DNA from: Pandoraea oxalativorans | Lineage (GTDB): Bacteria; Pseudomonadota; Gammaproteobacteria; Burkholderiales; Burkholderiaceae | Assembly: GCF_000972785.3 (NCBI RefSeq) | Contig: NZ_CP011253.3 | Coordinates: 248,001 to 312,000, forward strand | Direction of reading: 5' to 3' | DNA: 64,000 nucleotides | Shown: piece by piece, positions 3,088 through 63,707 of the stretch | How the letters are laid out: each line of letters begins with the position of its first letter | Position numbering within the stretch: position 1 is the first letter of the stretch | Notes under the pieces: model-generated | What the model was told of the DNA's origin: nothing | The model's input: only the letters and a program-made list of their open reading frames with translations | Database searches by the model: none | Position numbers and translations under genes: made by a program

Positions 3088-4287
3088 ATGATGAAGCGCC
3101 ATCTCTGGCTCGCTGTGGCACTTGCGAGCGTTTGCCAATTCACCGCTGTTTCAGTCGCGCGTGCCGAGGAAATCAAGGTCGGCGTGCTGGGTCTGTTCTC
3201 GGGCTCCGCGTCGTGGTGGGGCACCGAATACCGTCGCGGCCTCAACCTGTGGATGGAGCAGAACAAGAGCAAAGTCGGCGACGACACAATCGTGCTGCTC
3301 GAGCGCGACGAGGGCGGCGTGAACCCGCAACGCACGCGTCAGCTCGCACAGGAACTCGTGGTGCGCGATCAGGTGCAGTATCTGTTCGGCGGCTCGTTCA
3401 CGCCGAACGTGCTGGCGATGGCCGACGTCGTGAACCAGACCAAGACGCCGCTCGTCATCGGTAACTCGGGCACGTCGAGCGTCACGCTCAAGTCGCCGTA
3501 CTTCGCGCGCACCGGCTTCACGCAGTGGGCGGTGAGCGTGCCGCTCGTCGAATACGCCGCGAAGAAAGGTGTGAAGAACGCGGCCATCGTGGTGGCCGAC
3601 TTTGCGACCGGCTATGACGCCATCGACGCCTACAGCGAGACGTTTAAGAAGGCTGGTGGCAAGGTGGCCGTCGAGGTGAAGGTGCCGCTGGGCACGACGG
3701 ATTTCTCCAGCTACCTGCAACGTGTGCGTGACGCCAAGCCGGACGCCGTCTTCATGTTCATGCCGGTCGGCCCGATGTCGGCAGGCTTCGTGAAGGCGTT
3801 CAAGGAGCGCGAACTCGACAAGGCAGGCATCCAGCTCTTCGCCACGACCGAGACGATGGAATCGGACCTGCCCGCGATTGGCGACAGCGCGCTGGGCACG
3901 ATCACCGCACTGCACTACTCGCCGTTCCTCACGACGCCGGAGAACACCGCGTTCGTGAAGGCCTACAAGGCGAAGTACGGCCCGGGCGCACTGCCGTCGA
4001 TTGCTTCGGTCTCGGCCTACGACTCGATGACGCTGATCGCCCAGATGATCAAGGCGACCAAGGGCAAGAAGGACGCCGACAAGGCGATTGCCGCCGTGAA
4101 GGGGTATTCGTGGATGAGCGCGCGCGGCCCGGTGTCCATCGATCCGAAGACGCGTGAAATCGTGCAGAACGTGTACATCCGTCGCGTGGAGTCCATCGAC
4201 GGCAAGCTCGGCAACAAGCCGATCGATACGTACAAGTCGGTGGTCGAGCCGTGGCACATCAGCCACCCGGAAGTGGCCGCGAAGTAA
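3088..4287 (+). CDS. ABC transporter periplasmic binding protein, branched-chain amino acid/aromatic acid type
   Basis: A 399-residue type I periplasmic binding protein (LivJ-like fold). The ATG at 3088 has GAGGAGA about 8 bases upstream. A signal peptide follows (MMKRHLWLAVALASVCQF to about residue 26, cleavage near ARA-EE). The mature protein starts with IKVGVLGLFSGSASWWG, the usual opening of urea/amide/branched-chain binding proteins. It heads a five-gene importer (binding protein, two permeases, two ATPases) between the ring-cleavage genes, so the ligand is probably an aromatic acid or a derivative rather than leucine. The ligand is inferred from position. Confidence 0.85.
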   Translation: MMKRHLWLAVALASVCQFTAVSVARAEEIKVGVLGLFSGSASWWGTEYRRGLNLWMEQNKSKVGDDTIVLLERDEGGVNPQRTRQLAQELVVRDQVQYLFGGSFTPNVLAMADVVNQTKTPLVIGNSGTSSVTLKSPYFARTGFTQWAVSVPLVEYAAKKGVKNAAIVVADFATGYDAIDAYSETFKKAGGKVAVEVKVPLGTTDFSSYLQRVRDAKPDAVFMFMPVGPMSAGFVKAFKERELDKAGIQLFATTETMESDLPAIGDSALGTITALHYSPFLTTPENTAFVKAYKAKYGPGALPSIASVSAYDSMTLIAQMIKATKGKKDADKAIAAVKGYSWMSARGPVSIDPKTREIVQNVYIRRVESIDGKLGNKPIDTYKSVVEPWHISHPEVAAK

Positions 4288-5227: not shown

Positions 5228-6325
5228 ATGTCTCATACGAAACCCTCGCAAGCGCTGAACGGCGCGGCACAGGTGGCACCGGCGCTGCGTCGCAAGCGCC
5301 TTGGCATGCTCGACGCGCTGCTGCTGCTCGCCGCCGTCGCGACATACTTCTTCGCCGATCTGTATCTGGCGCTCGCCACGAGCGTGCTGATCATGATCAT
5401 CTTCGCGCTCTCGCTCGATCTCGTGCAGGGCTACTGCGGCATCGAGACGCTGGGACACGCGGCATTCTTCGGCAGCGGCGCCTATGCGGCCGGTCTGTTC
5501 GCGCTGCATGTCTCGCCGAATCCGTTGCTGGGTCTGGCGGCCGGTGCCGTGGTGGCGGCGGTCGTCGGGCTGATCACCGGCATCGTGGTGCTGCGTGTGA
5601 GCGGGCTGACGCAGATCATGCTCACGCTGGTCTGCGCCACGCTACTGTTTGAGGCGGGCAACATCGCCAAGTCCATCACGATGGGCGACGACGGTCTGAC
5701 CGGCTACAGCATCGCGCCGGTACTCGGCATGTTCGAGTTCGACATCTACGGCCACACGGCGTATCTGTATGCGTTCGCGGTGCTGCTCGTTGTCTATCTG
5801 TTCACGCAACTCCTCGTGAACTCGCCGTTCGGCCTGACGGTGCAGGGCATTCGCGAGAACGCCATGCGCATGTCGCTGCTGGGCGTGCGCGTCGGCCTGC
5901 GTCGCCTGATGCTGTACACGATTGCCGCCGCCGTAGCGGGCGTCGCAGGTGCGTTGTCCGCACAGGTCAACAACATCGTCGCGCTCGACACGCTGTCGTT
6001 CACGCTCTCGGCGAACGTGCTCGTGATGCTCGCGCTCGGCGGCACCGGACGCCTCTACGGCGCGGTGCTCGGCGCGGTCGTCTTCATGGTGCTGTCCGAC
6101 CGGATTGCCGCCATCGACCCGACGAACTGGCTCGCCGCCCTCGGCGTGTTGCTGATCGTGGTGGTGCGCTTCGCACCGGACGGCCTCATCGGTCTGGTGG
6201 ACCGGGTCGCAGCGCGTCTGCGTCGTTCGGCATCGGCGTCGGCGTCGGCATCGGCACCCGCTGCTGCGCCTGCGGCGACGGAGAACACCCAGGCAACGTC
6301 CACGGACAAGGAGGTGACGCCGTGA
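5228..6325 (+). CDS. livM: ABC transporter permease, LivM type
   Basis: A 365-residue inner-membrane permease, partner of the LivH-type protein. The ATG at 5228 is preceded by GCGGAGG and is preferred to the upstream GTG at 5207. Typical LivM features are DLVQGYCGIETLGHAAFFG near residue 60 and a late LALGGTGRLYGAVLGA segment. An unusual Ser-Ala alternating and Ala/Pro-rich tail follows residue ~335, probably a disordered cytoplasmic end. The gene overlaps the downstream ATPase gene by 4 bases. Confidence 0.84.
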   Translation: MSHTKPSQALNGAAQVAPALRRKRLGMLDALLLLAAVATYFFADLYLALATSVLIMIIFALSLDLVQGYCGIETLGHAAFFGSGAYAAGLFALHVSPNPLLGLAAGAVVAAVVGLITGIVVLRVSGLTQIMLTLVCATLLFEAGNIAKSITMGDDGLTGYSIAPVLGMFEFDIYGHTAYLYAFAVLLVVYLFTQLLVNSPFGLTVQGIRENAMRMSLLGVRVGLRRLMLYTIAAAVAGVAGALSAQVNNIVALDTLSFTLSANVLVMLALGGTGRLYGAVLGAVVFMVLSDRIAAIDPTNWLAALGVLLIVVVRFAPDGLIGLVDRVAARLRRSASASASASAPAAAPAATENTQATSTDKEVTP

Positions 6326-7074
6326 GCGCTGCACTCGAAATTCAGGGACTGTCGAAGCGCTTCGGCCAACTCGACGTCACCCGTAACGTCACGCTATCGC
6401 TGCCGGTCGGCGCACGTCACGCACTGATCGGACCGAACGGCGCGGGCAAGAGCACGTTGATGAACCTGCTCACCGGCGTGCTCAAGCCGAATGCAGGCGT
6501 GGTGCGCGTGGGCGGTACCGACGTCACGTCGATGCCGTCGCACAAGCGCGTGAAGCTCGGTCTGGCGCGCACGTTCCAGCTCAACACACTGTTCGACACG
6601 CTCACCGTCGCCGAGAACGTGGGCCTCGCGCTCACGTCGCGACGCGGACTCGACGGTCGCATCGGCCGCCCGCTGGCGAATCGCCCGGCGGTGGTCGAGG
6701 AAGCGGCGGAGCGTCTGCGCGAACTCGGGATGATCGATCTGGCTGGCAAGCGCATCAACGAACTCGCTTACGGCCAGCGTCGTCAGGTGGAAATCGCGCT
6801 GGGTCTGGCGCTCGACCCGAAGGTGCTGCTGCTCGACGAGCCGGTCGCGGGCGTGCCGTCGGGACAGGGACGCAAGCTGTTCGAACTGCTGGAGCGTTTG
6901 CCCGAAGACGTCGCGGTGATGGTCATCGAACACGACATGGATCTGGTCTTCCGCTTCGCGCGCCGCATTACGGTGCTGGTCGAAGGTGCGGTGCTGATGG
7001 AAGGCGAGAAGGACGAAGTGCGCAGCGATCCGCGCGTGCGCGATATCTATCTGGGGCGTCGCCACCATGACTGA
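6322..7074 (+). CDS. livG: ABC transporter ATP-binding protein, LivG type
   Basis: A 250-residue cytoplasmic ATPase. It starts with GTG in a GTGA overlap with livM, with AAGGAGG just upstream. Walker A is GPNGAGKSTL; the signature is the LivG-type LAYGQRRQVEIAL; Walker B is VLLLDEP; and the switch His lies in VIEHDMDLVF. It lacks the usual GLN stretch after Walker B and reads AGVPSGQ instead, which does not touch catalytic residues. It should form the ATPase heterodimer with the next gene product. Confidence 0.86.
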   Translation: MSAALEIQGLSKRFGQLDVTRNVTLSLPVGARHALIGPNGAGKSTLMNLLTGVLKPNAGVVRVGGTDVTSMPSHKRVKLGLARTFQLNTLFDTLTVAENVGLALTSRRGLDGRIGRPLANRPAVVEEAAERLRELGMIDLAGKRINELAYGQRRQVEIALGLALDPKVLLLDEPVAGVPSGQGRKLFELLERLPEDVAVMVIEHDMDLVFRFARRITVLVEGAVLMEGEKDEVRSDPRVRDIYLGRRHHD

Positions 7075-7804
7075 CATTCTGCTCGAAGCCGGTGGGCTCA
7101 GTGCCGGGTATGGCGAAACCATCGTGCTCGAAGACCTGAGCCTGCGTGTGGCGGCTGGCGAAGCCGTCGCGATTCTCGGCCGCAACGGCGTGGGCAAGAG
7201 CACGTTGCTGTTGAGCCTGCTCGGCCTCACCACGCGTCACGGCGGCGTGCTGCGCTATCGCGACGACGACATCACCTCGTGGCCCGCCTACAAGCGCGCC
7301 CGCGCCGGACTGGCGCTGGTGCCGCAGGAGCGCGAGATCTTCAAGTCGCTCAGCGTCGAAGAGAACCTGCAGGTCTCGGCGATGGGCGATGGGGCCGGTG
7401 CCGCTCACGACACGGGCACATGGACGCTGGAGCGCGTCTACGACCTGTTCCCGCGTCTGAAGGAGCGCCATCGCAATCTGGGCAATCAACTCTCGGGCGG
7501 CGAGCAGCAGATGCTTGCCATCGGCCGAGCACTGATCGGCAACCCCCGCGTGATTCTGTTCGACGAGCCGTTCGAAGGGCTCGCGCCCGTCATCGTCGAC
7601 CAACTGGTCGATGCGTTCTGGAAGCTGCGGGCCGACGGCGGCATGGGCGTGGTGCTCGTGGAGCAGCACGCAGAACTGGGGCTGGAACTCACCGACCGCG
7701 CGCTGGTGCTCGACCGGGGCCGTCAGGTCTGGGCGGGACGCAGCAGCGATCTGGCCGCGTCGCCGGAATTGCTCGGCACGCTGGTCGGGCTGGAAAGCGC
7801 CTGA
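7067..7804 (+). CDS. livF: ABC transporter ATP-binding protein, LivF type
   Basis: A 245-residue ATPase overlapping livG by 8 bases. Walker A is GRNGVGKSTL, the family hallmark LVPQEREIFKSLSVEENL is present, the signature is LSGGEQQMLAIGRAL and Walker B is VILFDEP. It completes the importer that begins at 3088. The same transcript probably continues into galB 43 bases later, which links uptake directly to the catabolic enzymes. Confidence 0.86.
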   Translation: MTDILLEAGGLSAGYGETIVLEDLSLRVAAGEAVAILGRNGVGKSTLLLSLLGLTTRHGGVLRYRDDDITSWPAYKRARAGLALVPQEREIFKSLSVEENLQVSAMGDGAGAAHDTGTWTLERVYDLFPRLKERHRNLGNQLSGGEQQMLAIGRALIGNPRVILFDEPFEGLAPVIVDQLVDAFWKLRADGGMGVVLVEQHAELGLELTDRALVLDRGRQVWAGRSSDLAASPELLGTLVGLESA

Positions 7805-52057: not shown

Positions 52058-53038
52058 ATGAGCCAACCTCGCCTCGTCGCCTTTCTTCTCGTGCCGCCGT
52101 TCGTTCTGCTGGATCTGGCGGGACCGCTCGACGCGTTTCACGCCGTCATCCGCAACTTCACGGAGCGGGGGCAGGACGCGCCCTACAAGACGGTGGTCGT
52201 GTCGGAGCACGGCGGACCGGTGGAGACGGGGTCGGGCATTACGCTGCACACGGAGCCGATGCGGGCGTTGGACGCGATGCACGTCGACACGCTGGTGGCA
52301 GTAGGCGGTGCGGTGGCGCATCGTCCGGCGGTGCCGGGGCCGGTGGGTGACTGGTTACGTGATTACGCACCGCGCGTGAGGCGCGTGTGTTCGGTGTGCG
52401 TGGGCGCGTTCGTACTGGCTTCGGCGGGGCTGCTCAATGGACGGCGTGCTACGACGCACTGGCTGGATACGGCGATGTTGCAGGCGTGCTATCCGGAGGT
52501 GCTGGTCGAGTCCGATCCGATATATGTGCGTGAGGATCCGGTGTGGACGTCGGCCGGGATTACGGCGGGCATCGATCTCGGACTGGCGTTGATCGAAGAC
52601 GATTGCGGCGTGGATGTGGCGTTACAAGCGGCGCGTCGGCTGGTGGTGTTTCTCAAGCGTGCGGGCGGGCAGTCGCAGTTCAGTCCGCCGTTGCAGGAGC
52701 AGGTGGCGGCAGGCGCGCCGTTCGGCGATCTGCATGCGTGGATGTCCGAGCGGCTGGACGGCGATCTGTCGGTGATGCGGCTGGCGGAGCAGGCGAACAT
52801 GAGCCCCCGGACGTTCGCCCGAAGCTATCTCGCGCGCACGGGATCGACACCTGCGAAGGCGGTGGAGCGCATGCGTCTGGAGGCGGCGCGCTTCGCGTTG
52901 CTCGATTCGGATGCGTCGCTCAAACGCATCGCCGCACGCGTCGGTTTCGGCGACGAACAGAACCTGCGCCGCGCGTTTCAACGTCAGTATGGTGTGACGC
53001 CTGTGGCGTATCGGGAGCGGTTTGGGCTTAGCGTCTGA
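52058..53038 (+). CDS. GlxA-family transcriptional regulator (DJ-1/PfpI plus AraC HTH)
   Basis: A 326-residue regulator. The N-terminal half is a DJ-1/PfpI-type domain with the nucleophile-like Cys in SVCVGAFVLASAG near residue 114; the C-terminal third is an AraC-type double HTH (LAEQANMSPRTFARSYLARTG and IAARVGFGDEQNLRRAFQRQ). Members such as GlxA and GbdR-like proteins sense small nitrogen compounds. The gene follows the MFS gene closely. It marks the left edge of the RiPP cluster. Confidence 0.84.
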   Translation: MSQPRLVAFLLVPPFVLLDLAGPLDAFHAVIRNFTERGQDAPYKTVVVSEHGGPVETGSGITLHTEPMRALDAMHVDTLVAVGGAVAHRPAVPGPVGDWLRDYAPRVRRVCSVCVGAFVLASAGLLNGRRATTHWLDTAMLQACYPEVLVESDPIYVREDPVWTSAGITAGIDLGLALIEDDCGVDVALQAARRLVVFLKRAGGQSQFSPPLQEQVAAGAPFGDLHAWMSERLDGDLSVMRLAEQANMSPRTFARSYLARTGSTPAKAVERMRLEAARFALLDSDASLKRIAARVGFGDEQNLRRAFQRQYGVTPVAYRERFGLSV

Positions 53039-53126
53039 CCTCCCCGCATTCCGTCTTTTCTCTTCCTCCCTTGCCATGCGAAGCAACGTGCTTCGCGCTG
53101 CGCTAGCATTTTTCGGAATTCTCTGA

Positions 53127-53155
53127 TTTCAATCTAAACCTCTCTCGGTTAATAC
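53127..53155 (+). promoter_or_regulatory. Possible promoter of the RiPP cluster
   Basis: TTTCAA (53127-53132) and TAATAC (53150-53155) with a 17-base gap form a moderate sigma70-like promoter in the A+T-rich gap after the GlxA gene. A transcript would start about 110 bases before the precursor gene. Confidence 0.4.
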
Positions 53156-53274
53156 TCTTCGTCACCCGCACGTCATGCCAATCTGGCTCATCTGCACGGC
53201 GAGACGTGGGGCGTCTTGTTGACGTCCCCGCCATCAACGAGACGAATTTCCGGCGGGATTCAAGGAGATTTCTC

Positions 53275-53433
53275 ATGACTACGAAGGCATTCATCGAGCA
53301 ACTGGCCAAAAAGCAGAAGGCCGCGAATGAAGCAGGTTCGATCAAGGAAATTCCGGCCAGCGAACTTGAACGGATCTCAGGCGCACGCGGTGGCAACGTG
53401 TTCGTGAATGCGACATGGAGCCGCGCCATGTAA
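53275..53433 (+). CDS. RiPP precursor peptide, XyeA/triceptide-like
   Basis: A 52-residue peptide. AAGGAGA six bases upstream of the ATG at 53275 makes it a real gene. The leader is a charged helix (FIEQLAKKQKAANEAG) ending in the classic export signal ELERISGARGG. The 12 residues after GG, NVFVNATWSRAM, hold two aromatic-X-X triads, Phe-Val-Asn (43-45) and Trp-Ser-Arg (48-50). These are the positions joined by radical SAM enzymes as three-residue cyclophanes in the XYE/triceptide families. Either GG (39-40) or Gly-Ala (36-37) may be the cleavage site. The cognate modifying enzyme starts 72 bases downstream. Confidence 0.85.
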   Translation: MTTKAFIEQLAKKQKAANEAGSIKEIPASELERISGARGGNVFVNATWSRAM

Positions 53434-53457
53434 GGCGACGGTCTGATTCGTTCGAAA

Positions 53458-53489
53458 CGGGGCGCGCGCCCATTGGCGCGTGCCCGTTT
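53458..53489 (+). terminator. Hairpin with T-tract between the precursor and radical SAM genes
   Basis: CGGG and CGCGCC in the 5' arm (from 53458) pair with GGCGCG and CCCG in the 3' arm, giving an interrupted stem of about 10 bp, followed by TTTT (53487-53490). It is 25 bases after the precursor stop. It looks like a partial terminator that would give more precursor mRNA than enzyme mRNA, common in RiPP operons. Confidence 0.6.
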
Positions 53490-53504
53490 TCAGGGGGAGG
53501 AGGT

Positions 53505-54674
53505 ATGAAACAGTACGTCGAAGTGATCTTGAAGGTCTCGGAGCGCTGCAATATCGATTGCAAGTATTGCTACTTCTTCAACAAGGAAAACAAGGACTAC
53601 GCGTCGAATCCGCCCTATATGACGCAACAGACGGCGGAGGACTTCGTCACGTTCCTGAGGTCGTCTCCGAACCTTCGTGAGACTACATTCCAGATCGACC
53701 TTCACGGAGGCGAGCCGTTGATGATGAAGCGTGAACGTTTCGAAGCCCTCGTGACGACCCTGAAGAATGGATTGAGCGACGCCGAGTCGGTGCAGTTCAC
53801 CGTGCAGACCAATGCCATGCTCGTCGACGAAGCGTGGCTCGACTTATTCTCGCGACTGGGGGTATACATCGGTGTGAGCATCGACGGCCCGAAGATCTAT
53901 CACGACGAGAATCGCGTCGATAAGCAGGGAATGGGGACCTATGACCGTACTGTGGAGAAGATCGCGTTGATCAAGGCTGCTGCCGATACGGGACTCATTT
54001 CGGGATTTGGAGCAATCTGCGTCATGAATCCCAAGTTCGATGCGCGGCTGGTCTACGACACGTTGACACGCACGTTGGGAATCTACAATCTTCAGTTTCT
54101 GTTGCCGGACGAGTCGCACGATTCTGTCCGCACCGCCGATGTGATGGCGCTCAAATGGTTCACGCAGGCGCTCTTCGATTGCTGGGCGGACGATCCCCGG
54201 GGGACTGTTCGCATTCGCTCAATCGATCGGATGCTCGATGCGATTCTCGCCGACGAACCGCGCAAGGATGTCATCTGGCGGGACGCGAGAAGCAGCGTTG
54301 TGTTCACGTTGTCGAGCGGTGGCGACATCGGACATGACGATACGTTGAGAAACGTCATTCCGGACGTTTTCTACGCACGCATGAACGTCGCATCGTCCAC
54401 GTTCTCAGAATTCCTGGCCTGGCACGCGACCGTCAGCGCGATGCTCGCACGCCGAACCACGGCCGTGGCCTGCCGTACGTGCCTGTGGCGTGAAATCTGC
54501 GAAATCGCCACCCGTTCCGACACGCCCCTGCATCGCTGCAAGAATGGGGTTGCAGACCAGCACACCGTCTATTGCGAATGCCTGAAGGCGAACTACGAGA
54601 AGGGCGCGGAATATCTTGCACTGAGCGGGGTTGCGATTGAGGAGATCAGCCGAAATTTCGTGGAGGTCGACTGA
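53505..54674 (+). CDS. Radical SAM/SPASM peptide maturase, XyeB-like cyclophane synthase
   Basis: A 389-residue radical SAM enzyme. GGGGGAGGAGG precedes the ATG at 53505. The cluster-binding Cys are C15, C19 and C22 in RCNIDCKYCYFF, and the SAM motif is DLHGGEPLMM. A SPASM-type C-terminus carries Cys at about 323, 326, 332, 345, 357 and 359 (ACRTCLWREIC and YCEC), for auxiliary iron-sulphur clusters. The size, the start VEVILKVSERCNIDC and the small GG-leader precursor next door fit the cyclophane-forming maturases. Predicted reaction: aryl-carbon to beta-carbon bonds within FVN and WSR. The protease gene starts directly after the stop. Confidence 0.86.
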   Translation: MKQYVEVILKVSERCNIDCKYCYFFNKENKDYASNPPYMTQQTAEDFVTFLRSSPNLRETTFQIDLHGGEPLMMKRERFEALVTTLKNGLSDAESVQFTVQTNAMLVDEAWLDLFSRLGVYIGVSIDGPKIYHDENRVDKQGMGTYDRTVEKIALIKAAADTGLISGFGAICVMNPKFDARLVYDTLTRTLGIYNLQFLLPDESHDSVRTADVMALKWFTQALFDCWADDPRGTVRIRSIDRMLDAILADEPRKDVIWRDARSSVVFTLSSGGDIGHDDTLRNVIPDVFYARMNVASSTFSEFLAWHATVSAMLARRTTAVACRTCLWREICEIATRSDTPLHRCKNGVADQHTVYCECLKANYEKGAEYLALSGVAIEEISRNFVEVD

Positions 54675-55627
54675 ATGAAGGCACTTCATCGCATCAGACG
54701 CATTGTTTGGGTGGCCGTTGCGGCGTTGGCAATTTTCGGCGCGGCACGCGCTCACGCCCGGGTACATCAGTGCAGCGCCGCGTGGCCGGAAGTTGCACCG
54801 GTGTTCGCTGCGACGGTTCAGTACGGCGATCCAGAACAGAAGACTGACCCGTATATCGACGTGCTGGTGAACGATAGGTCGGCGAAGATGTTGCTCGATA
54901 CCGGCTCCAATGCCCATGTATTGTGGGACACACGCCTGCTGGATAGCGCCTCCCTGCCGACTGGCGAATCATTGCAAACGCTCGACGCCATTGCATCGGC
55001 CACAAAGGCGAGCAACGTCATGCTTTCGCTTACCGACGGGGCGAATCGACAGCATCTCCAGAGGTTCTATGTGATCGACGAAACGCCGTTGATGGCACTG
55101 GGTTACTCGGGCATTGTCAGTCCACAGTTTCTGGCGCAAGAAAAAGTTTCGCTCATCGACTTCAAGGACGACTGCTTCTTCGTCAGCGAGCGGTTCGATC
55201 CCGGCGGCGCAGGCCGATACCGGCTCGATGTGCTTGGCGAAATCCCCAATCCTCACCGTGTCATGGCGATTCCGCTCGGCGTTCGGGGGGACGGGTTCCC
55301 GTAGTTGTCGATTCCGGAGCCTTTCGGACGACTCTGCTCGAAAGTCTCGTGTTGAAGGCCCCTCTGGGGGCGCAACGTACGAAACAACTGGATTTGCTGG
55401 GAAACATCGTGCCGAACGCAGGGCAAACCCGTCTGGTGGACCTTACGGTGAACGGGCGACACATTGATGCGCATCCGGTTGTCCCCGTGCCTGCAATGTC
55501 GGAGAAAGGCGTCGTGACGTTCGGCGCTATCGGCATGGACGTGCTCCGGGAGCGTGTCATTTTTCACGACGGAGATCGCCATCGCTTTGTGTTCATCGAG
55601 AAGGCGACGGAAACGGAGTTGAATTGA
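54675..55627 (+). CDS. Two-lobed aspartyl protease-like protein, frame broken at a G6 tract
   Basis: An exported protein (signal peptide VWVAVAALAIFGAARAHA) with the retropepsin/pepsin motif MLLDTGSNAHV (Asp75) in the first frame, which stops at 55304. A second frame, shifted by -1 and entered at GGGGGG (55285-55290), continues with VVVDSGAFRTTLLESLV, a second catalytic D-S-G motif, and runs to 55627. Together they make about 317 residues with two Asp motifs, a complete pepsin-like pair. Either one G is missing (mutation or read error) or ribosomes slip. A pepsin-like or XyeC-type role in peptide maturation is inferred. The gene starts directly after the radical SAM stop. Confidence 0.75.
55285..55290 (+). 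other. G6 homopolymer at the frame break
   Basis: Six consecutive G followed by A. In the zero frame the codons are CGG GGG GAC and a stop follows four codons later (TAG 55302-55304). A -1 shift at GGG restores VVVDSGAF. The tract is short for phase variation but is a common place for both homopolymer read errors and ribosomal slippage. Confidence 0.7.
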
Positions 55628-55675
55628 TGTCGCTCGCATGTCTCCGTCTCGTTCACTTCCTTTGCCCCCGCTGCC

Positions 55676-56926
55676 ATGTTTCGTGACGAAGCGTTGGCGG
55701 CGGGACATCCCAGATGGTTGGGGGACGTTCTGCTCGTGCAGCCTTTGCCCATCAAAGTGGGCGCGGTCGGTGCGGCGCTGGCGGCTTGCGTTGTCGTTGC
55801 CTTTCTGGCATTCGGTACCTACACGCATCGGGTCGCGGTCGTCGGACGGCTCATGCCAGCGTCCGGTGTGGCGAAAATCTACGCACCTCAGTCGGGAGTT
55901 GTGACCTCGCGTCTTGTCAGCGAAGGGCAACGGGTGAGTCGGGGTGATGTGCTGTACGTGGTTTCGTCCGAGCGTCAGCAGCGCGCGGGTGAGGGGGTTC
56001 ACGCCTCGGTGACGGGACAGATTGCGGCTCGGGCGGCATCGCTGAAGGCGGATATCGAAGAGATGCAGCGTGTACATTCCATCACCCGCCACGCGCAGCA
56101 GACGACTGTCGATACGTGCAAGGACGAAATCGTCAAACTTGACGCGCTAATTCGTCATCAAACGCATCGCGTCGCACTCGCGAAGGAGAACCACGAGCGA
56201 TACACCCGATTGCTTGCACAGGACTTCGTGTCACGCGAGCGTGCACAAGAGAAGCACGCGCAATATCTGGAGCAGAACGCGCGGCTGAGCGCACTTCAGC
56301 GCGAGCGGGTCGTGGCCGTACGCGCCTTATCCGAGGCGCGCCGTGTGTTTGAGTCGATGCCGTTGGCGCAGCATCGCGAACTTACAAACAGTCTGCGCGA
56401 ATTGGCCAAGGTGGAGCAGGAGCGGGTCGAGAGTGAAGGAAAGCGGGAGTTCTCCGTCGTGTCTCCCGTCAGCGGGGTTGCTACGGCTATTGTTGCAGAA
56501 ACTGGACAGAACGTTTCCACATCGACGCCGGTCGCTTCGATCCTACCCGCCGATGTGTCGCTCGAAGCCCATTTGTACGTGCGCAGCCAAGCGGTGGGGT
56601 TTTTGAGGCGGGGCGACCGCGTGCATCTGCGTTACCGTGCGTTCGCCTATCAGCAGTACGGGCATTTTGTCGGCGTCGTCACGTCGGTATCTGAAGCCGC
56701 GCTGCCGCATTCGGAGCTCGCCGACGTCGACGCTTACGAGGGGCGATATGGGGCACAGGTGCCGGTCTATCTCGTGAAGGTCGGCATCGGCGATGCGCTG
56801 TCGTCTCGAAGTCGGCAGCTCCCCTTGCGCGCGGGAATGATGCTCGACGCCGACATCATGCGTGAGACGCGCCGACTCTATGAGTGGGCATTGCATCCGC
56901 TGAGGAGTCTCGGGGAGCGGATTTAA
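55676..56926 (+). CDS. HlyD-family membrane-fusion protein of the RiPP exporter
   Basis: A 416-residue type I secretion adaptor (CvaA/HlyD-like). One membrane helix (AVGAALAACVVVAFLAFGTY) is near residue 30-50, then a biotinyl-lipoyl half-domain (IYAPQSGVVTSRLVSEGQRV), a long coiled-coil hairpin (about 120-250) and the returning lipoyl half (FSVVSPVSGVATAIVAETGQ). It bridges the inner-membrane ABC exporter encoded 13 bases downstream and the TolC-like protein. No strong ribosome site is seen. Confidence 0.87.
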   Translation: MFRDEALAAGHPRWLGDVLLVQPLPIKVGAVGAALAACVVVAFLAFGTYTHRVAVVGRLMPASGVAKIYAPQSGVVTSRLVSEGQRVSRGDVLYVVSSERQQRAGEGVHASVTGQIAARAASLKADIEEMQRVHSITRHAQQTTVDTCKDEIVKLDALIRHQTHRVALAKENHERYTRLLAQDFVSRERAQEKHAQYLEQNARLSALQRERVVAVRALSEARRVFESMPLAQHRELTNSLRELAKVEQERVESEGKREFSVVSPVSGVATAIVAETGQNVSTSTPVASILPADVSLEAHLYVRSQAVGFLRRGDRVHLRYRAFAYQQYGHFVGVVTSVSEAALPHSELADVDAYEGRYGAQVPVYLVKVGIGDALSSRSRQLPLRAGMMLDADIMRETRRLYEWALHPLRSLGERI

Positions 56927-56939
56927 GCCAGGTGACAAT

Positions 56940-59081
56940 ATGACGAAATGGAATTACCTCGACGCATTGTTCCAGGATCGTATTCCCACGGTGCTCCAGA
57001 CGGAAGCGGCAGAATGCGGGCTTGCATGTCTCGTCATGATCGGAAGTTTTCACGGCTATCACGCCGATCTTCGTTCGCTGCGTAGCCGCTTTCCGATCTC
57101 CCAGATGGGTGCGACGCTCGCAAGCCTAGTGAAAATCGCGCAGCAGATGCGTCTCGCGAGCCGCGCCGTGAGTCTGGAGTTGGCAGCAATTGGGCAACTT
57201 CGCCTGCCCTGCGTTCTGCACTGGAATTTCGATCATTTCGTGGTGCTGGTCAGTGTCGATGGAAAAGGTGCCGTGATTCACGATCCGGCGCGCGGACGGC
57301 GGCATGTGGCTCACGGTGAACTCTCCGATGCATTCACAGGTGTGGCGCTGGAGCTTTGGCCCGACCACGATTTCGCGACGCGCGACGAACGGCGAAAGAT
57401 CCACGTCTCGCACGTGCTTGGCACGATCACGGGCTTGAAAGCATCGGTCGCGCAGCTCTTCGTGCTCGCGATCTCGCTGGAGATTTTCGTGCTCGTCTCC
57501 CCGTTCTATCTGCAATGGGTGATCGACCACGCACTGCTGTCGGCCGACAGAAATCTACTCGCGACACTCGCCCTGGGATTCGGATTTATGCTCCTTTTGC
57601 AGCATGCCATCGGCGTGCTGCGCGGCTGGTTGGTCATGCGGCTCGGCGTCGCCTGGAATGTACAGTGGCGGGCCAACCTCTTCGCGCATATGGTCCGTCT
57701 GCCGGTGAGCTACTTCGTCAAACGGCATCTTGGCGATGTTTTGTCGCGTTTTGGGGCGGTCGATGAAATTCAGCGTACATTGACGACCTCCTTCGTCGAG
57801 GCATGGCTGGACGGCATGCTGGCGGCTCTGACTCTCATCCTGATCTTCGCCTATAGCCCGATGTTGGGCGTGCTGGTTGCGGGGTTCGTCGTGGTCTACG
57901 CAATGCAGCGAATGGTGTCTTACCGGCCGCTGTTCCGCGCGACGGAGGAACATCTCGTACAGGCGTCGCTTCAGCAAAGCCATTTTTTGGAGACGCTGCG
58001 CGGTATCAAAACCATCAAACTCTTTTCCCGCGAAGACGAACGGCAATTGGCGTGGCTGGCGCTGCTGGTGCAGCAGGCCAATGCAGATGTTCGCATTCAG
58101 AAACTCACGCTATTGAATCGGCATACCAACGCGTTCCTGACAGGAGCGGAGAACATTGTAGTCATCTGGGCCGCCGCCACGTCGGTCATCGAGGGTGGGC
58201 TGAGCGTTGGGGCGCTCATCGCGCTGCTGGCTTATAAGACGCAGTTTCAAGCGCGTGTGACGTCGTTGATCGACAAATTGGCTGAGTTCAAGATGCTGGG
58301 TGTGCAGGCTGGGCGACTCGCTGACATCGCTCTGCATGCACCGGAGGTCGACGCGCAGACGCCGCCGCGACGAGCGACGAACGATGGAGTGGCGCTGGCC
58401 GTCGACGGGCTGGCGTTTCGCCATAGCGAGCATGAAGCGAATGTGCTGGAGGACGTCACGTTTTGCGTGCGTGCGGGCGAGTCGGTGGAGATCGTCGGGC
58501 CATCTGGCAGCGGAAAGTCGACTCTGGCCCATCTGCTCCTAGGCGTGTTCGCTCCCTCGGCAGGGACCATCACGCTCGCCGGTCGTGCGGTGAAGAAGTC
58601 GGATATCTCTCAACTTCGGCGCGAGATCGGCGCAGTCATGCAAGACGACGTGCTGTTTGCAGGTTCGCTCGCAGAAAACATCAGCCTCTTCGACACTAAG
58701 GCGGACGTGCCGTGGATCCATGAGTGTGCCCGTCAGGCGTGTGTGGACGACGACATTGAGGCCATGCCGATGGGATACAACACCCTCGTCGGCGATATGG
58801 GGAGCGTGCTCTCTGGCGGTCAGAAGCAGCGAATCCTGCTTGCGCGCGCTCTCTATAAGCGTCCCACCATCCTATTGCTCGACGAGGCGACGAGTCACCT
58901 TGACGTCGACAATGAGCAGCGCGTCAACGCGGCCATCCGGTCGCTTCGCATGACGCGCATCATCATCGCGCATCGTCCTCAGACCATTGCCAGTGCCGAC
59001 CGGGTGATTCAATTGCTCGACGGCAAGGTGGTAGGAGATGGGTGCGCTGGCGCCGAATCTCAGTCCGGCCTGAGACGGTGA
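56940..59081 (+). CDS. Peptidase-containing ABC exporter (PCAT, C39 peptidase)
   Basis: A 713-residue exporter for double-glycine leader peptides. The N-terminal C39 peptidase has the catalytic Cys in QTEAAECGLACLVMIG, His in LHWNFDHFVVLV and Asp in IHDPARGRR, so it should be active. A six-helix membrane domain follows (about 155-430). The ATPase has Walker [11 protein letters not shown], signature LSGGQKQRILLARAL and Walker B ILLLDEATSHLD. It should cut the precursor leader and export the mature core. It overlaps the start region of the TolC-like gene, which makes translation coupled. Confidence 0.92.
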   Translation: MTKWNYLDALFQDRIPTVLQTEAAECGLACLVMIGSFHGYHADLRSLRSRFPISQMGATLASLVKIAQQMRLASRAVSLELAAIGQLRLPCVLHWNFDHFVVLVSVDGKGAVIHDPARGRRHVAHGELSDAFTGVALELWPDHDFATRDERRKIHVSHVLGTITGLKASVAQLFVLAISLEIFVLVSPFYLQWVIDHALLSADRNLLATLALGFGFMLLLQHAIGVLRGWLVMRLGVAWNVQWRANLFAHMVRLPVSYFVKRHLGDVLSRFGAVDEIQRTLTTSFVEAWLDGMLAALTLILIFAYSPMLGVLVAGFVVVYAMQRMVSYRPLFRATEEHLVQASLQQSHFLETLRGIKTIKLFSREDERQLAWLALLVQQANADVRIQKLTLLNRHTNAFLTGAENIVVIWAAATSVIEGGLSVGALIALLAYKTQFQARVTSLIDKLAEFKMLGVQAGRLADIALHAPEVDAQTPPRRATNDGVALAVDGLAFRHSEHEANVLEDVTFCVRAGESVEIVGPSGSGKSTLAHLLLGVFAPSAGTITLAGRAVKKSDISQLRREIGAVMQDDVLFAGSLAENISLFDTKADVPWIHECARQACVDDDIEAMPMGYNTLVGDMGSVLSGGQKQRILLARALYKRPTILLLDEATSHLDVDNEQRVNAAIRSLRMTRIIIAHRPQTIASADRVIQLLDGKVVGDGCAGAESQSGLRR

Positions 59082-59092
59082 GGGGCAGGAAC

Positions 59093-60667
59093 GTGCGAGC
59101 CACTCGCCGTCTTGCCGCGTCGGTCGCCGCGCTCGCTGTGGGGGCGCTGAGCCCGATGTTGCAGGCCCAATGTGTGCCAGACGATAGCCCCGCCGGGATG
59201 TCGACACGCGCTTCGACCGATTTTCCAGTCAACGTTCGGGCAGTCGGTGCGGCTGACGCTGCGGTCGAGTTCTCGGGAGACGGAACAGTAGCGAGCGTCG
59301 ATAGGCACGACGCGCAAGTGCCGTTATCTCTGACGCAGGCGATCCGTCTAGGGTTGCAGCGCGATCCTCAGATTGCGCAGTCGTGGGCGGAAGTGAGGGC
59401 GCGAGCAGCACGCGTCACGGTCGCGCGGGCCGCCTACTTGCCATCGGCCAGCGCTGGCGCGGACGTGTCGATGACGAGTGACGCGTTAGCGACACCGGGT
59501 GGCGTTTCCCGGCGTGCCGGTTCGGGGCGCGAGGCTTCCGGGGAAGTCGGCGCAAGCTGGCTGTTGTTCGATGTTGGCGAGCGCGACGCGCTCCTGGACC
59601 GCGAGAAGTATCGTCTGGAAATTGCCGAAGCATTGACCGACGTGAGTCTTCAACAGGCGATTTTCGACGTCGCCAAGGCGCACTACCTGGCGCGTGACGC
59701 GTACGCAAGATTGCGCATTGCGCGCGACGGCGAGCTATTCTCGCAGCAGATCCTCAAGGCGGCCTGCGCCAGATTCGACGCGGGTGCTGGGGCACTGGTC
59801 GAGGTGCTGCGTGCCCGCACGGCACACGGCAAATACGTATTGCTGCGTCTGGACGCGGTGGCCGACGTCGTCGCACGGAGTAGCGAACTCGCCTCGCTTG
59901 TCGGCGCACCGCTGGATACGATTTTCACGCTTGGCGATGACGGGGCGGAAGGCGCTGCCGGAACCTCGCCACCCGCACCGGTCGACGTGATGATGGCGGA
60001 TCTGGAGCGCCGCCATCCGCTGTTGCGCAAAGCGAATGCCGAGATCCTTGCCGAGAAGGCGGCAGCAGATGCTGCGCGCCATGCGTGGGGGCCGACATTG
60101 ACGCTGGTGGCCGGCGTCGATGGTTCGGAATCGTTCGGCACGTCATACGATGTCCGTCCCGGATTGCGCGCGAGCATCGGCATTCGGATTCGCATTCCGC
60201 TTTTCGACGGAGGCCTCCGAAAGCACCGCGCGCGGGAAGCGGAGGCGCGTGTCGATCTGGCCGCCGAGCGCAAACGAGGCGTATTGCGTGAGGTGACGTC
60301 ACAAATCTGGCGGCGTCATCGCGCGCTGCTTTCGTTGTCACGGCGACGAAGTGTCGAGGTTCGTTTGTCTGGCGATGCCAGACAATCGCGCGACATCGCC
60401 CGTGAGCGCTATCGGGAAGGCGTGGGCAGCATCGAGGAGATCATCAGCGCTCAAACAGCGCTGGCCGACGCACAAGACACATTGCGGGCCTCGCGCACGC
60501 GTTGGCATCTTGAAAGGTTGGCGCTGGCGGCAAGTCTCGGCGCACTGGACAGTGCGGCAGGGGAAACGCTGACGATACGGGAGGGCGTCGAACAACGGGC
60601 TCACGCCGCCAACTTCCCCGCCGCAGCCTTATCCAGAAACCGGAACAGACGTGCATCGTCCGAGTAG
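59093..60667 (+). CDS. TolC-like outer-membrane efflux protein
   Basis: About 524 residues. The GTG at 59093 has AGGGGCAGGA upstream and gives a proper signal peptide (RRLAASVAALAVGALSPMLQAQ); GTG at 59042 would overlap the exporter gene by 40 bases. The central part has the two-repeat outer-membrane-factor pattern: LTQAIRLGLQRDPQIAQSWA and a later repeat starting EILAEKAAADAARHAWGPTL, RERYREGVGSIEEIISAQTA near the end. It completes the three-part secretion line. Its last 67 bases overlap the convergent MocR gene. Confidence 0.86.
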   Translation: MRATRRLAASVAALAVGALSPMLQAQCVPDDSPAGMSTRASTDFPVNVRAVGAADAAVEFSGDGTVASVDRHDAQVPLSLTQAIRLGLQRDPQIAQSWAEVRARAARVTVARAAYLPSASAGADVSMTSDALATPGGVSRRAGSGREASGEVGASWLLFDVGERDALLDREKYRLEIAEALTDVSLQQAIFDVAKAHYLARDAYARLRIARDGELFSQQILKAACARFDAGAGALVEVLRARTAHGKYVLLRLDAVADVVARSSELASLVGAPLDTIFTLGDDGAEGAAGTSPPAPVDVMMADLERRHPLLRKANAEILAEKAAADAARHAWGPTLTLVAGVDGSESFGTSYDVRPGLRASIGIRIRIPLFDGGLRKHRAREAEARVDLAAERKRGVLREVTSQIWRRHRALLSLSRRRSVEVRLSGDARQSRDIARERYREGVGSIEEIISAQTALADAQDTLRASRTRWHLERLALAASLGALDSAAGETLTIREGVEQRAHAANFPAAALSRNRNRRASSE

Positions 60668-62049
60668 GCGACGTTGAAGCGGAACCAGTGGCAGGGTTCG
60701 TTGTGGGCGAGGAAGAACTCGCCTGGCGCGAGCATGATGCTCTCCAGTAGCGCCGCTTCTGCCAGCTCGCGTGCAGGTTGCGTGGCGTCCGGCAGGCTGC
60801 CGCACACGAACATGCCGCCTTCCGGCTGCGCCAGCAGCGTCACGCCATGCGATTGCAACTGGGCGATGAGGCGTGCACGGGAGCGCGTCAGGCGATCCGA
60901 CAGACGTTCGATGTGTTTGCGGTGACGTCCTTCGGTCAGGATCGCGTGGACGATGCGCTCGTTGATCTCGGACGACGTCAGCCCCGCCACCATCTTGCTG
61001 CGCGCAATCTCATGCGCCAGATCGCGCGAACACGTCAGATACCCCACGCGCACCGATGGCGAGATCGTCTTCGAAAAACTGGAGACGTAGATTACGCGCG
61101 ACAAGCCATCCATCGCCGCCAGGGACGGCGTACCCGGTGGCGCAAGCTCGCGATAGATGTCGTCTTCGACGATCCAGAACCCATGCTGCTCCGCGCACTG
61201 CAAGATACGATGCGCCGACGCCGGTGTGAGCGACGTCCCCAACGGATTCTGCAACGCCGGATTCATGAACAGTGCGCGCGGGCGATGCGTCTGCGCCGCC
61301 TGCTCCAGCGCAGCGAGGTCCAGCCCCGCTTCCGTGCGGGGGATGCCCACGACGTTCAGTCCCGCCAGACGCAACACCGCCAGCAAATTGCAATACGCCG
61401 GGGCTTCGACCAGCACCGTGTCGCCCGGCTTGAGCAACGTGCGCACCACGAGATCCAGTGCCTGCGTGGCGCCGTGCGTGAGTACGATCTGCTCGGGCGG
61501 CGCGTCGATGGATAACTCGCCAAGGCGGCGCGTGAGCCACTGACGCAACGGTCCGTAACCGTGCGGATGCCCGTAGTGCGCGAAATGCGCGCCGGGGCCC
61601 TTGGACAGCGAGCGTAGCGCGCCATGCAGACCGTCCTCGTCGAGCCAACTGTCGGGGAGCCAGCCGCAACCGCTTTTCACTGCGATGGAGTCGTCCGCGA
61701 AGATTTCGGAGAGCAACCAGGCATTGGTGACTTCGCTCGCGGCGGCCCCCATCGACAGACGCCCGCCGAGGTTGGCCGAACCGGCCTCGCGCGCATCCGC
61801 CGCCCCCGCCACGAAAAACCCCGCACCGCGCCGGGCCACGAGCGTGCCGTGCGCGACCAGCCGGTCATACGCCTCCACCACCGTGAACGTACTGATGCCG
61901 TGCGCCTTCGCGAGCGATCGGATCGACGGCATGCGCATACCCGCGTGTAACGTCTGACGCTGTAACGCCCGCTCGACCTCCCGCACGATCTGGTCGACGA
62001 GCGCTTCGGGTTGCGCGCGGTTCAGGGTAAAGGCGAGCGGCTGGACCAT
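60601..62049 (-). CDS. MocR/GntR-type regulator (GntR HTH plus aminotransferase-like domain)
   Basis: A 482-residue PLP-dependent regulator. The start is the ATG at 62049, MVQPLAFTLNRAQPEALVDQ. An N-terminal GntR HTH (MRMPSIRSLAKAHGISTFTV) is followed by a class I aminotransferase-like domain with the PLP Lys in YVSSFSKTISPSVRVGYL. It is divergent from an omega-amino-acid transaminase gene with a 329-base gap that holds four copies of a TACAG motif. It likely senses a PLP-amino acid adduct and controls the transaminase/dehydrogenase operon. Confidence 0.87.
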   Translation of the reverse strand: MVQPLAFTLNRAQPEALVDQIVREVERALQRQTLHAGMRMPSIRSLAKAHGISTFTVVEAYDRLVAHGTLVARRGAGFFVAGAADAREAGSANLGGRLSMGAAASEVTNAWLLSEIFADDSIAVKSGCGWLPDSWLDEDGLHGALRSLSKGPGAHFAHYGHPHGYGPLRQWLTRRLGELSIDAPPEQIVLTHGATQALDLVVRTLLKPGDTVLVEAPAYCNLLAVLRLAGLNVVGIPRTEAGLDLAALEQAAQTHRPRALFMNPALQNPLGTSLTPASAHRILQCAEQHGFWIVEDDIYRELAPPGTPSLAAMDGLSRVIYVSSFSKTISPSVRVGYLTCSRDLAHEIARSKMVAGLTSSEINERIVHAILTEGRHRKHIERLSDRLTRSRARLIAQLQSHGVTLLAQPEGGMFVCGSLPDATQPARELAEAALLESIMLAPGEFFLAHNEPCHWFRFNVAYSDDARLFRFLDKAAAGKLAA

Positions 62050-62378
62050 GGTTTGACGAAAGTATGGGTAAGAACGACGAGCGAGCGTGCGCAATACGCA
62101 CTCCGTTGAACACTCAATCTGCGGTGTACGGGTAAATCCCGAGCGGCATCGTATTCGGCCCCGGCCCACGTGGCGCGGGGCGGGCGGGTGTCCGCTCCAT
62201 CGGCTGTTGCCAATACAGTTGAGACGATTGACCGATACAGAATAACCATTTTCCGAGTGACTGTACATGTCTGTACCGGTTCGCCTCTCGTAGCATCGAT
62301 CCCATCCACCCGAGGAGCGGCTTTGCGTCGCCAACCCGGGACCTCCTGATCGTGACATGCCCCTGGGGAGACCCCGCG
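62050..62378. promoter_or_regulatory. Divergent promoter region with repeated TACAG half-sites
   Basis: Between the MocR gene and the transaminase gene. ATACAG occurs at 62213 and 62235 (22 bases apart) and the complement CTGTAC at 62261 and 62271 (10 bases apart). MocR proteins bind direct and inverted short repeats, so these are good operator candidates. I see no other gene in the stretch. Confidence 0.55.
62213..62276. repeat. Four R-TACAG half-sites (candidate MocR operator)
   Basis: ATACAG at 62213-62218 and 62235-62240, and CTGTAC (GTACAG on the minus strand) at 62261-62266 and 62271-62276. Helical spacing of 22 and 10 bases places each pair on one face. Confidence 0.5.
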
Positions 62379-63707
62379 ATGAACATGAAAGACCTGAATC
62401 TCGATATGACGGCATTCTGGATGCCGTTCACCAACAACCGTCAGTTCAAAAGCTCGCCGCGCCTGTTGGTCAAGGCCGAAGGCATGCACTACACGTCGTC
62501 GGACAATCGTCAGATTCTCGACGGCACCGCCGGTCTCTGGTGCGTGAACGCCGGACATTGCCGCACCGAGATCGTCGAAGCGATCCGCCAGCAGGCCGGT
62601 GAGATGGACTTCGCACCGACGTTCCAGATGGGGCACCCGAAAGCGTTCGAAGCGGCCGCCAAGATCGCCGAGATCACGCCGCAGGGCCTTGACCGTGTGT
62701 TCTTCACGAACTCGGGTTCGGAGTCCGTGGACACCGCCCTCAAGATCGCGCTCGCTTATCACCGCGCGCGCGGCGAAGGCCAGCGCACGCGCCTCATCGG
62801 ACGTGAGCGCGGCTATCACGGCGTGGGCTTCGGCGGCATCTCGGTCGGCGGCATCTCGCCGAACCGCAAGGCGTATTCCGGCCAACTGCTGCCTGCCGTC
62901 GACCATCTGCCGCACACGCTCAACATCAAGGAAGCCGCCTTCACCAAGGGGCAGCCGACGTGGGGCGCGCATCTGGCCGACGAACTGGAGCGCATCGTCA
63001 CGCTGCACGACGCGTCGACCATCGCCGCCGTGATCGTCGAGCCGCTGGCAGGCTCCACCGGCGTGCTGGTGCCGCCGCAGGGCTATCTGCAAAAGCTGCG
63101 CGAGATCTGCGACAAACACGGCATTCTGCTGATTTTCGACGAAGTGATTACGGGCCTGGGCCGCCTCGGCAAGCCGTTCGCCGCGCAGTACTTCGGCGTG
63201 ACGCCGGACATCATCACGATGGCCAAGGGCGTGAACAATGCCGCTGTGCCGATGGGGGCCGTCGCTGTGAAGACGAGCGTGCACGACACCATCGTCGACG
63301 CCGGTAACACGGGCGCCATCGAGTTCTTCCACGGCTACACGTACTCGGGTCACCCGCTGGCCGCCGCCGCTGCCTGCGCTGCGCTCGACGTCTACAAGAA
63401 CGACGGCCTGTTCGAGCGTGCCGCCAAGCTCGCCCCGCACTTCGAAAAGTCGATCCACGCGCTGCGCGACCTGCCGAACGTCGTGGACATTCGCAACCTC
63501 GGGATGGTCGGCGGTATCGAGCTGTCGACGCGCGACGGCAAGCCCGGCGCACGTGCGCACGAGATCTTCGTCAAGTGCTTCGAGAAGGGTGCGCTGATCC
63601 GTTACACCGGCGACATCCTTGCGTTCTCGCCGCCGCTCATCATCAGCGAAGCGCAGATCGACGAGTTGTTCGGCATCGTCTCGGAAGCCATTCGCGAGAC
63701 CGCATAA
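62379..63707 (+). CDS. Omega-amino acid (beta-alanine):pyruvate aminotransferase
   Basis: A 442-residue class III PLP aminotransferase. The ATG at 62379 has GGGGAG upstream and gives MNMKDLNLDMTAFWMPFTNN, the standard start of beta-alanine:pyruvate transaminases. LIFDEVITGLGRLGKPF (PLP Asp), DIITMAKGVNNAAVPMGAV (PLP Lys) and FFHGYTYSGHPLAAAAA are clear. It transfers the amino group of beta-alanine or related omega-amino acids to pyruvate, making malonate semialdehyde, the substrate of the next enzyme. Confidence 0.9.
   Translation: MNMKDLNLDMTAFWMPFTNNRQFKSSPRLLVKAEGMHYTSSDNRQILDGTAGLWCVNAGHCRTEIVEAIRQQAGEMDFAPTFQMGHPKAFEAAAKIAEITPQGLDRVFFTNSGSESVDTALKIALAYHRARGEGQRTRLIGRERGYHGVGFGGISVGGISPNRKAYSGQLLPAVDHLPHTLNIKEAAFTKGQPTWGAHLADELERIVTLHDASTIAAVIVEPLAGSTGVLVPPQGYLQKLREICDKHGILLIFDEVITGLGRLGKPFAAQYFGVTPDIITMAKGVNNAAVPMGAVAVKTSVHDTIVDAGNTGAIEFFHGYTYSGHPLAAAAACAALDVYKNDGLFERAAKLAPHFEKSIHALRDLPNVVDIRNLGMVGGIELSTRDGKPGARAHEIFVKCFEKGALIRYTGDILAFSPPLIISEAQIDELFGIVSEAIRETA

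Follow-up and report, generated by a model that had tools for sequence, protein, structure and literature searches.

A 64,000-nucleotide stretch of the Pandoraea oxalativorans genome (the window; the host genome comprises 6.5 Mb in five contigs) carries, with good probability, a biosynthetic cluster for a cyclophane-containing ribosomally synthesized and post-translationally modified peptide (RiPP). The cluster resembles the Xenorhabdus/Yersinia/Erwinia (XYE) systems and would represent a Burkholderiaceae clade distinct from XyeA/XyeB, in which B is proposed to act as the maturase, C as a periplasmic protease and D, E and F as the export line. Six genes lie on the + strand at 53275–60667, namely a precursor (A), a radical S-adenosylmethionine (SAM) enzyme (B), an aspartyl protease (C), a HlyD protein (D), a C39 exporter (E) and a TolC protein (F), with the following parts.

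53275..53433, + strand: precursor peptide A, 52 residues, with leader motif ELERISGA and core RGGNVFVNATWSRAM
53401..53424, + strand: codons of the predicted crosslink triads F43-V44-N45 and W48-S49-R50, by analogy with the chemistry given for XncB in the excerpted text of PMC11002830
53460..53485, + strand: A-B hairpin found by folding, 11-bp stem and 4-nt loop followed by GTTTTC, a likely attenuator
53505..54674, + strand: radical SAM/SPASM maturase B, 389 residues, its start at 53505 preceded by AGGGGGAGGAGG
54675..55304, + strand: first part of protease C, 209 residues, with a signal peptide (by eye) and the first catalytic motif LLDTGS
55301..55627, + strand: second part of protease C in another frame, with VVVDSGA and the second lobe; earliest start codon in this frame at 55349
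55676..56926, + strand: HlyD-type periplasmic adaptor D, 416 residues, from the domain profile search
56940..59081, + strand: C39 peptidase-containing ATP-binding cassette (ABC) exporter (PCAT) E, 713 residues (PF03412 1.7e-31, PF00664, PF00005)
59093..60667, + strand: TolC-like outer membrane protein F (PF02321 1.2e-47), likely with a GTG start at 59093 (by eye); the longest open reading frame (ORF) runs from 59042

ORFs and domain profiles bear out the genes, order and single strand that a first-pass annotation of this DNA had proposed, including the 52-residue precursor and the 389-residue radical SAM enzyme. The C39 triad that it had called intact was likewise seen by eye, the Cys, His and Asp of E being present in the expected motifs. 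Comparison of the locus with relatives, which it had suggested as a check, recovered the same genes in the same order and at the same site in five other Pandoraea genomes; the cluster is therefore not a chance arrangement.

The XYE-like order A-B-protease-HlyD-PCAT was also rightly recognised: it equals that of the annotated xyeA/xyeB locus on the megaplasmid of Xenorhabdus bovienii CS03, with C broken in the window. Both systems have a short GG/GA leader, aromatic-x-N and aromatic-x-R/K triads and a two-lobed aspartyl protease with a signal peptide (by eye). The X. bovienii protease is annotated as ‘hypothetical’ and was recognised as an aspartyl protease here; the intact relatives of C belong to the same class, with two D[ST]G motifs and a two-lobed, pepsin-like organisation. 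The systems differ, however, in that B is only 32% identical to its counterpart and the proteases are about 20% identical with a weak profile match (probability 22%, E 0.001). The Pandoraea core holds two triads with a two-residue spacer, whereas the X. bovienii core WVNVFARWDKAI contains three possible triads (WVN, FAR, WDK), and the Pandoraea cluster includes its own TolC.

When B was searched against the SPASM families, XyeB (TIGR04496) was the best-scoring maturase family at 233 bits, about half of the curated cut-off of 450; X. bovienii XyeB reached 558.8 bits in the same test. Lower scores, all under the cut-offs, were obtained with other cyclophane formers of the same superfamily, YhhB (NF041707; 220 bits, cut-off 445), FxsB (161 bits), DynA (121.5 bits) and GrrM/OscB (GrrM 85.6 bits), and with DarE (77 bits, cut-off 650). 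Placement of B in some unrelated SPASM family whose chemistry differs (thioether formation, epimerisation or sulfatase maturation), the outcome that the first-pass annotation had named as fatal to its reading, is very improbable, since the three top-scoring families all form cyclophanes, the core lacks the Cys that a thioether needs and its triads match the XncB substrates reported in the excerpts of PMC11002830.

Several observations weigh against the assignment as a whole. Besides its low XyeB score, B has only four invariant C-terminal cysteines, fewer than the seven of a full SPASM domain, although X. bovienii XyeB shares these four in the same alignment. The XyeA profile (TIGR04495, cut-off 33 bits) gave no match to A at E up to 1, while X. 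bovienii XyeA scored 69.3 bits in the same test. Structure models of C were weak, with a predicted local distance difference test score (pLDDT) of 60.7 for the best of five and 35–47 for the others. Finally, the protease of the window is broken and the resemblance of the core to the darobactin tail (see below) is short. Filing the pair as XyeA/XyeB was rejected, the curated cut-offs not being reached. Because the XyeB score lies below the cut-off and the XyeA profile misses A, we regard the cluster as a sister of the Xenorhabdus XYE triceptides and not as a curated member. The cyclophane reading and the XYE likeness of the first-pass annotation thus hold, whereas curated membership and an intact cluster in this strain do not.

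Across the class, TIGR04496 matched 6 of 369 genomes at 1e-40, the window's included, and none above the cut-off (the genome set contains one genome per species). The TIGR04496 loci L046–L050 added little; L046, a gammaproteobacterial XyeB-like locus, encodes at 3495–3740 a candidate precursor ending in SIEVFGKWSRS. A murein lipoprotein search for an Enterobacterales centre returned 0 of 274 at 1e-15. Other related clusters are the Burkholderiaceae loci L020, L021 and L022, with B 33–36% identical, related HlyD/PCAT/TolC and the cores FANASFSKRF, FANSSFSKRF and FANATWSKAWR, respectively. In L020 (10278–11396) and L022 (7622–8749) a probably secreted protein of 372–375 residues without a Pfam match replaces the aspartyl protease; L021 has no match to C.

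A profile of the precursor, searched in a set of 5.8 billion proteins, yielded nine matches: the window's own, four from Pandoraea, one from Robbsia and three others. In Pfam, A matches only type-A lantibiotic leaders, at a sub-threshold 14 bits (cut-off 21.7). FVNATW, which supplies an aromatic-X-X triad in the core, is invariant in all seven aligned precursors, and the second triad is WSR in six of them and WNK in Robbsia. The decayed locus of Pandoraea genome G198 retains FVNATWSRAM, and the diverged copy in G245 reads FANATWTKSI. The latter cluster (L036, 8893–14007) has an internal deletion in its maturase gene. The excerpts of PMC11002830 report that XncB links Trp with Arg or Asn, and Phe with Asn. 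FVN and WSR fit this chemistry, on which analogy the product is predicted to be a bicyclic peptide with two crosslinked triads, at −4.03 Da. For the window's A the predicted masses are 5604.93 (linear) and 5600.90 (with both bonds), and those of the C39-cut product 1664.82 and 1660.79, respectively.

In the proposed pathway, B would bind the leader of A and join the Phe43 ring to the β-carbon of Asn45 and the Trp48 ring to the β-carbon of Arg50. E would cleave the leader after its GA and, together with D and F, export a bicyclic product no longer than 15 residues. C, as a Sec-exported, two-lobed pepsin-like protease, should be periplasmic, judging from the signal peptide seen by eye, and there it would trim the peptide or, as lone copies of its gene suggest, protect the cell. 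Expression may be tuned between A and B, where the gap of the window folds into a hairpin (minimum free energy −35.5, z −2.70). Among the seven A-B gaps folded, the window's included, z is below −2 in six (L016, −0.94), and the stem sequence differs between two Pandoraea groups. The hairpin is likely an attenuator that holds precursor transcripts above enzyme transcripts.

The first-pass annotation had suggested an antibacterial product, which it may be, and BamA is a candidate target. The precursors end in WSRAM/L/I in Pandoraea, WTKSI in G245, WNKSF in Robbsia, FSKRF in L020 and L021, WSKAWR in L022 and WDKAI in Xenorhabdus. The darobactin systems (DarA/DarE) differ in the DarE score given above and in their WNW ether motif, absent here, and their transporter set is different. 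Darobactins A, B and D end in WSKSF, WTKRF and WTRSF, akin to the WSRAM of the window and the WNKSF of Robbsia, and in darobactin D9 the last aromatic residue extends into a hydrophobic pocket of BamA (both in the excerpted text of PMC10107326). On this likeness and the pocket contact, BamA is a sensible conjecture but nothing firmer. That the peptide acts on something else or in a different role (signalling or a target other than BamA) is somewhat probable: none of the 739 BamA columns separates five producers from 23 others (a comparison without G233 and G228, where contig ends cut the register, without G249, which gave no match, and without G010), and the last residue of the Pandoraea tails is M, L or I where darobactins have F. 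Against this, the tails follow a pattern, W-x-[KR]-[AS]-hydrophobic, much like those of XyeA and the darobactins, and xenorceptides are reported as BamA inhibitors (excerpts of PMC12971899). Protection of the producers by an altered BamA was rejected for want of a separating column, and no target-based self-protection is therefore visible.

The cluster had been described as complete, with the protease as a single gene, and here the description fails. C is split over two frames near 55,285–55,305, with the DTG motif in one (54675–55304) and the remainder, to 55627, in another. The second frame contains no ATG, GTG or TTG before 55349, past VVVDSGA, so that no normal start leads into this second catalytic motif, which is lost. 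An intact protease of a relative, used as a query, gave two separate matches in the window's genome, which holds no further copy of C at E up to 1e-10. A programmed frameshift is unsupported, since each of the 11 relatives compared, six with clusters and five with a lone C, has C in one open frame. If the base call is correct, the frame break probably impairs this strain in the step that C carries out. A sequencing error at a homopolymer, with the cluster functional after all, is nearly as probable as not. The break falls near or at a run of six G (55285–55290), besides which the gene has no homopolymer of at least six and the cluster only one; the remaining cluster genes are open; and the first part of C has a ratio of nonsynonymous to synonymous differences (pN/pS) of 0.40–0.47 against the relatives, slightly above the 0.31–0.43 between them. 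On the other hand, the window's precursor was found on one contig only among the sequences searched, and real loss does occur in the genus, as the decayed clusters of G222, G245 and G198 attest.

C is narrowly distributed. At E up to 1e-12 it was found in 14 of 398 genomes of the family, 13 of them Pandoraea (the window's included) and one of another genus. The 5.8-billion-protein set gave 17 proteins at E up to 1e-5, one being the window's own first part, and all those with an organism assigned are Pandoraea; this search reaches only relatives that share short words and missed the Robbsia copy. On this narrow, mostly Pandoraea distribution, C as a widespread housekeeping enzyme was rejected.

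The site of the cluster was compared across the genus by means of its two neighbours.

52058..53038, + strand: flanking AraC/PfpI-type regulator, the site marker, with no membership of the cluster implied
60601..62415, − strand: flanking convergent MocR-type regulator with GntR and aminotransferase domains; the true start probably lies downstream of the beginning of this longest ORF

The TolC and MocR-type genes overlap at their 3′ ends (60601–60667), and because of this the last ~20 TolC codons match even cluster-free genomes. Upstream of A, a block around TTTTCGGAATT (53110–53132) is conserved in all six aligned Pandoraea clusters and is a possible regulatory site.

With the AraC gene as marker (E up to 1e-120), the site was located in 28 of the 32 Pandoraea genomes; such an AraC gene was not found in the other four. 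The full cluster occupies six of the 28 sites (that of the window with C broken, that of G249 with F cut by a contig end), an intact lone C five (G082, G140, G125, G210, G147) and remnants four (decayed C in G117 and G233, a B remnant in G222, A and TolC fragments in G198). In ten genomes AraC is followed by MocR with no match to A–E, and two (G161, G109) have other sequence within 1.5 kb beside AraC. G245 has only a 70% AraC match, and its cluster, in which B has the internal deletion, is found on a different contig. These states are scattered over the AraC tree, where the window (cluster) is adjoined by G082, G125 and G140 (lone C) and G180 (empty). Among the clusters of the window, G249 and G062, synonymous divergence (pS) of B is 0.62–0.71 against 0.37–0.45 in the flanks; cluster genes more diverged than their flanks fit a possible exchange of the cluster between species. 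In G204, G168 and G216 cluster and flank divergence agree (0.24–0.27 and 0.26–0.28).

All five lone C genes are of full length (316–322 codons), without stops and with both D[ST]G motifs. In a tree that left out two extra lone copies (L100, L101), these five group in a single clade (99/99), separate from the cluster-bound copies. In G082, G140 and G125 the pS of lone C (0.28–0.33) matches that of the flanking gene (0.26–0.31), so the gene was probably inherited in place; between G210 and G147 it exceeds the flank (0.44 against 0.34). Four close pairs have pN/pS of 0.275–0.39 (Fisher p 2e-9 to 9e-20), dN/dS values here being simple pairwise estimates, several of them saturated. This constraint is weaker than that on three closely related cluster copies (0.115–0.145) and on the flanking gene (0.03–0.14). 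The producers G204 and G216 carry a further lone C elsewhere (L100 and L101, ~6300–7750, L100 in reverse complement), with pN/pS of 0.29 between the two (p 1e-5). It adjoins PpiD- and Lon-like genes (named by eye); no match to A, B, D or F was found beside it, and the E query gave only an ABC ATPase match.

What C does bears on the earlier remark that no immunity gene is visible, which may be wrong, as C itself is a candidate. C may serve in maturation only, removing residues between the C39 cut and the first ring, with the lone copies decaying or otherwise used; this is a serious possibility that stops a little short of probable. Wherever B and D could both be recognised beside it, in seven clusters (that of the window, L013–L017 and the Robbsia locus L019), C stands between them, as it does in Xenorhabdus, there are spare residues between the GA cut and the first Phe, the lone copies are under the weaker constraint described above, and two of the seven at the site are decayed. 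Yet the five others are intact with pN/pS well under 1, those of three species have diverged in step with the flanking gene, and two producers hold a further copy elsewhere in the genome. A peptide exported through HlyD and TolC should, moreover, not pass through the periplasm. Pure maturation explains the position of C in the cluster and not its retention by non-producers.

Alternatively, and more tentatively, C may confer immunity or resistance by destroying the cyclophane peptide, and would then be kept by non-producers as an orphan where the cluster is lost or absent, and as an extra copy by some producers; the remaining weight goes to both roles or to another. A protective role would explain the lone copies and the extra copies, and producers would then require no distinct BamA. 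Among E. coli bacteriocins, orphan immunity genes that persist in the absence of the toxin are on record (excerpts of PMC12546727). Protection is argued against by the mid-operon position of C, by the weaker constraint and decay among lone copies and by the unrelated, probably secreted protein that L020 and L022 carry in its place. Cyclophanes are also generally regarded as resistant to proteases.

The predicted chemistry is already known. In the literature, no paper was found that combines Pandoraea, radical SAM and RiPP, and none among the matches listed describes an aspartyl protease of this kind as immunity in a RiPP or cyclophane system. The main text of a review of RiPP leader proteases (PMC10885120) contains neither ‘aspartyl protease’ nor ‘aspartic protease’, and the excerpted XYE literature does not state how producers protect themselves. 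Nor was there a paper, among the matches listed, on this clade, on its two-triad core, on the pattern of lone proteases or on the exchange site; the two key triceptide papers, Nguyen 2020 and Sugiyama 2022, may map the clade.

Cyclophane RiPPs, among them darobactin and the xenorceptides, provide leads against Gram-negative bacteria, and within this clade intact clusters related to that of the window are available from several Pandoraea and from Robbsia. The lone, constrained protease offers a testable answer to the question of self-protection in XYE producers. If C does protect, a triceptide system would here have self-protection by proteolysis, and a resistance enzyme of this kind would also matter for the drug class. 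The swap of cluster, lone protease and empty site among sister species would then be a footprint of peptide warfare.
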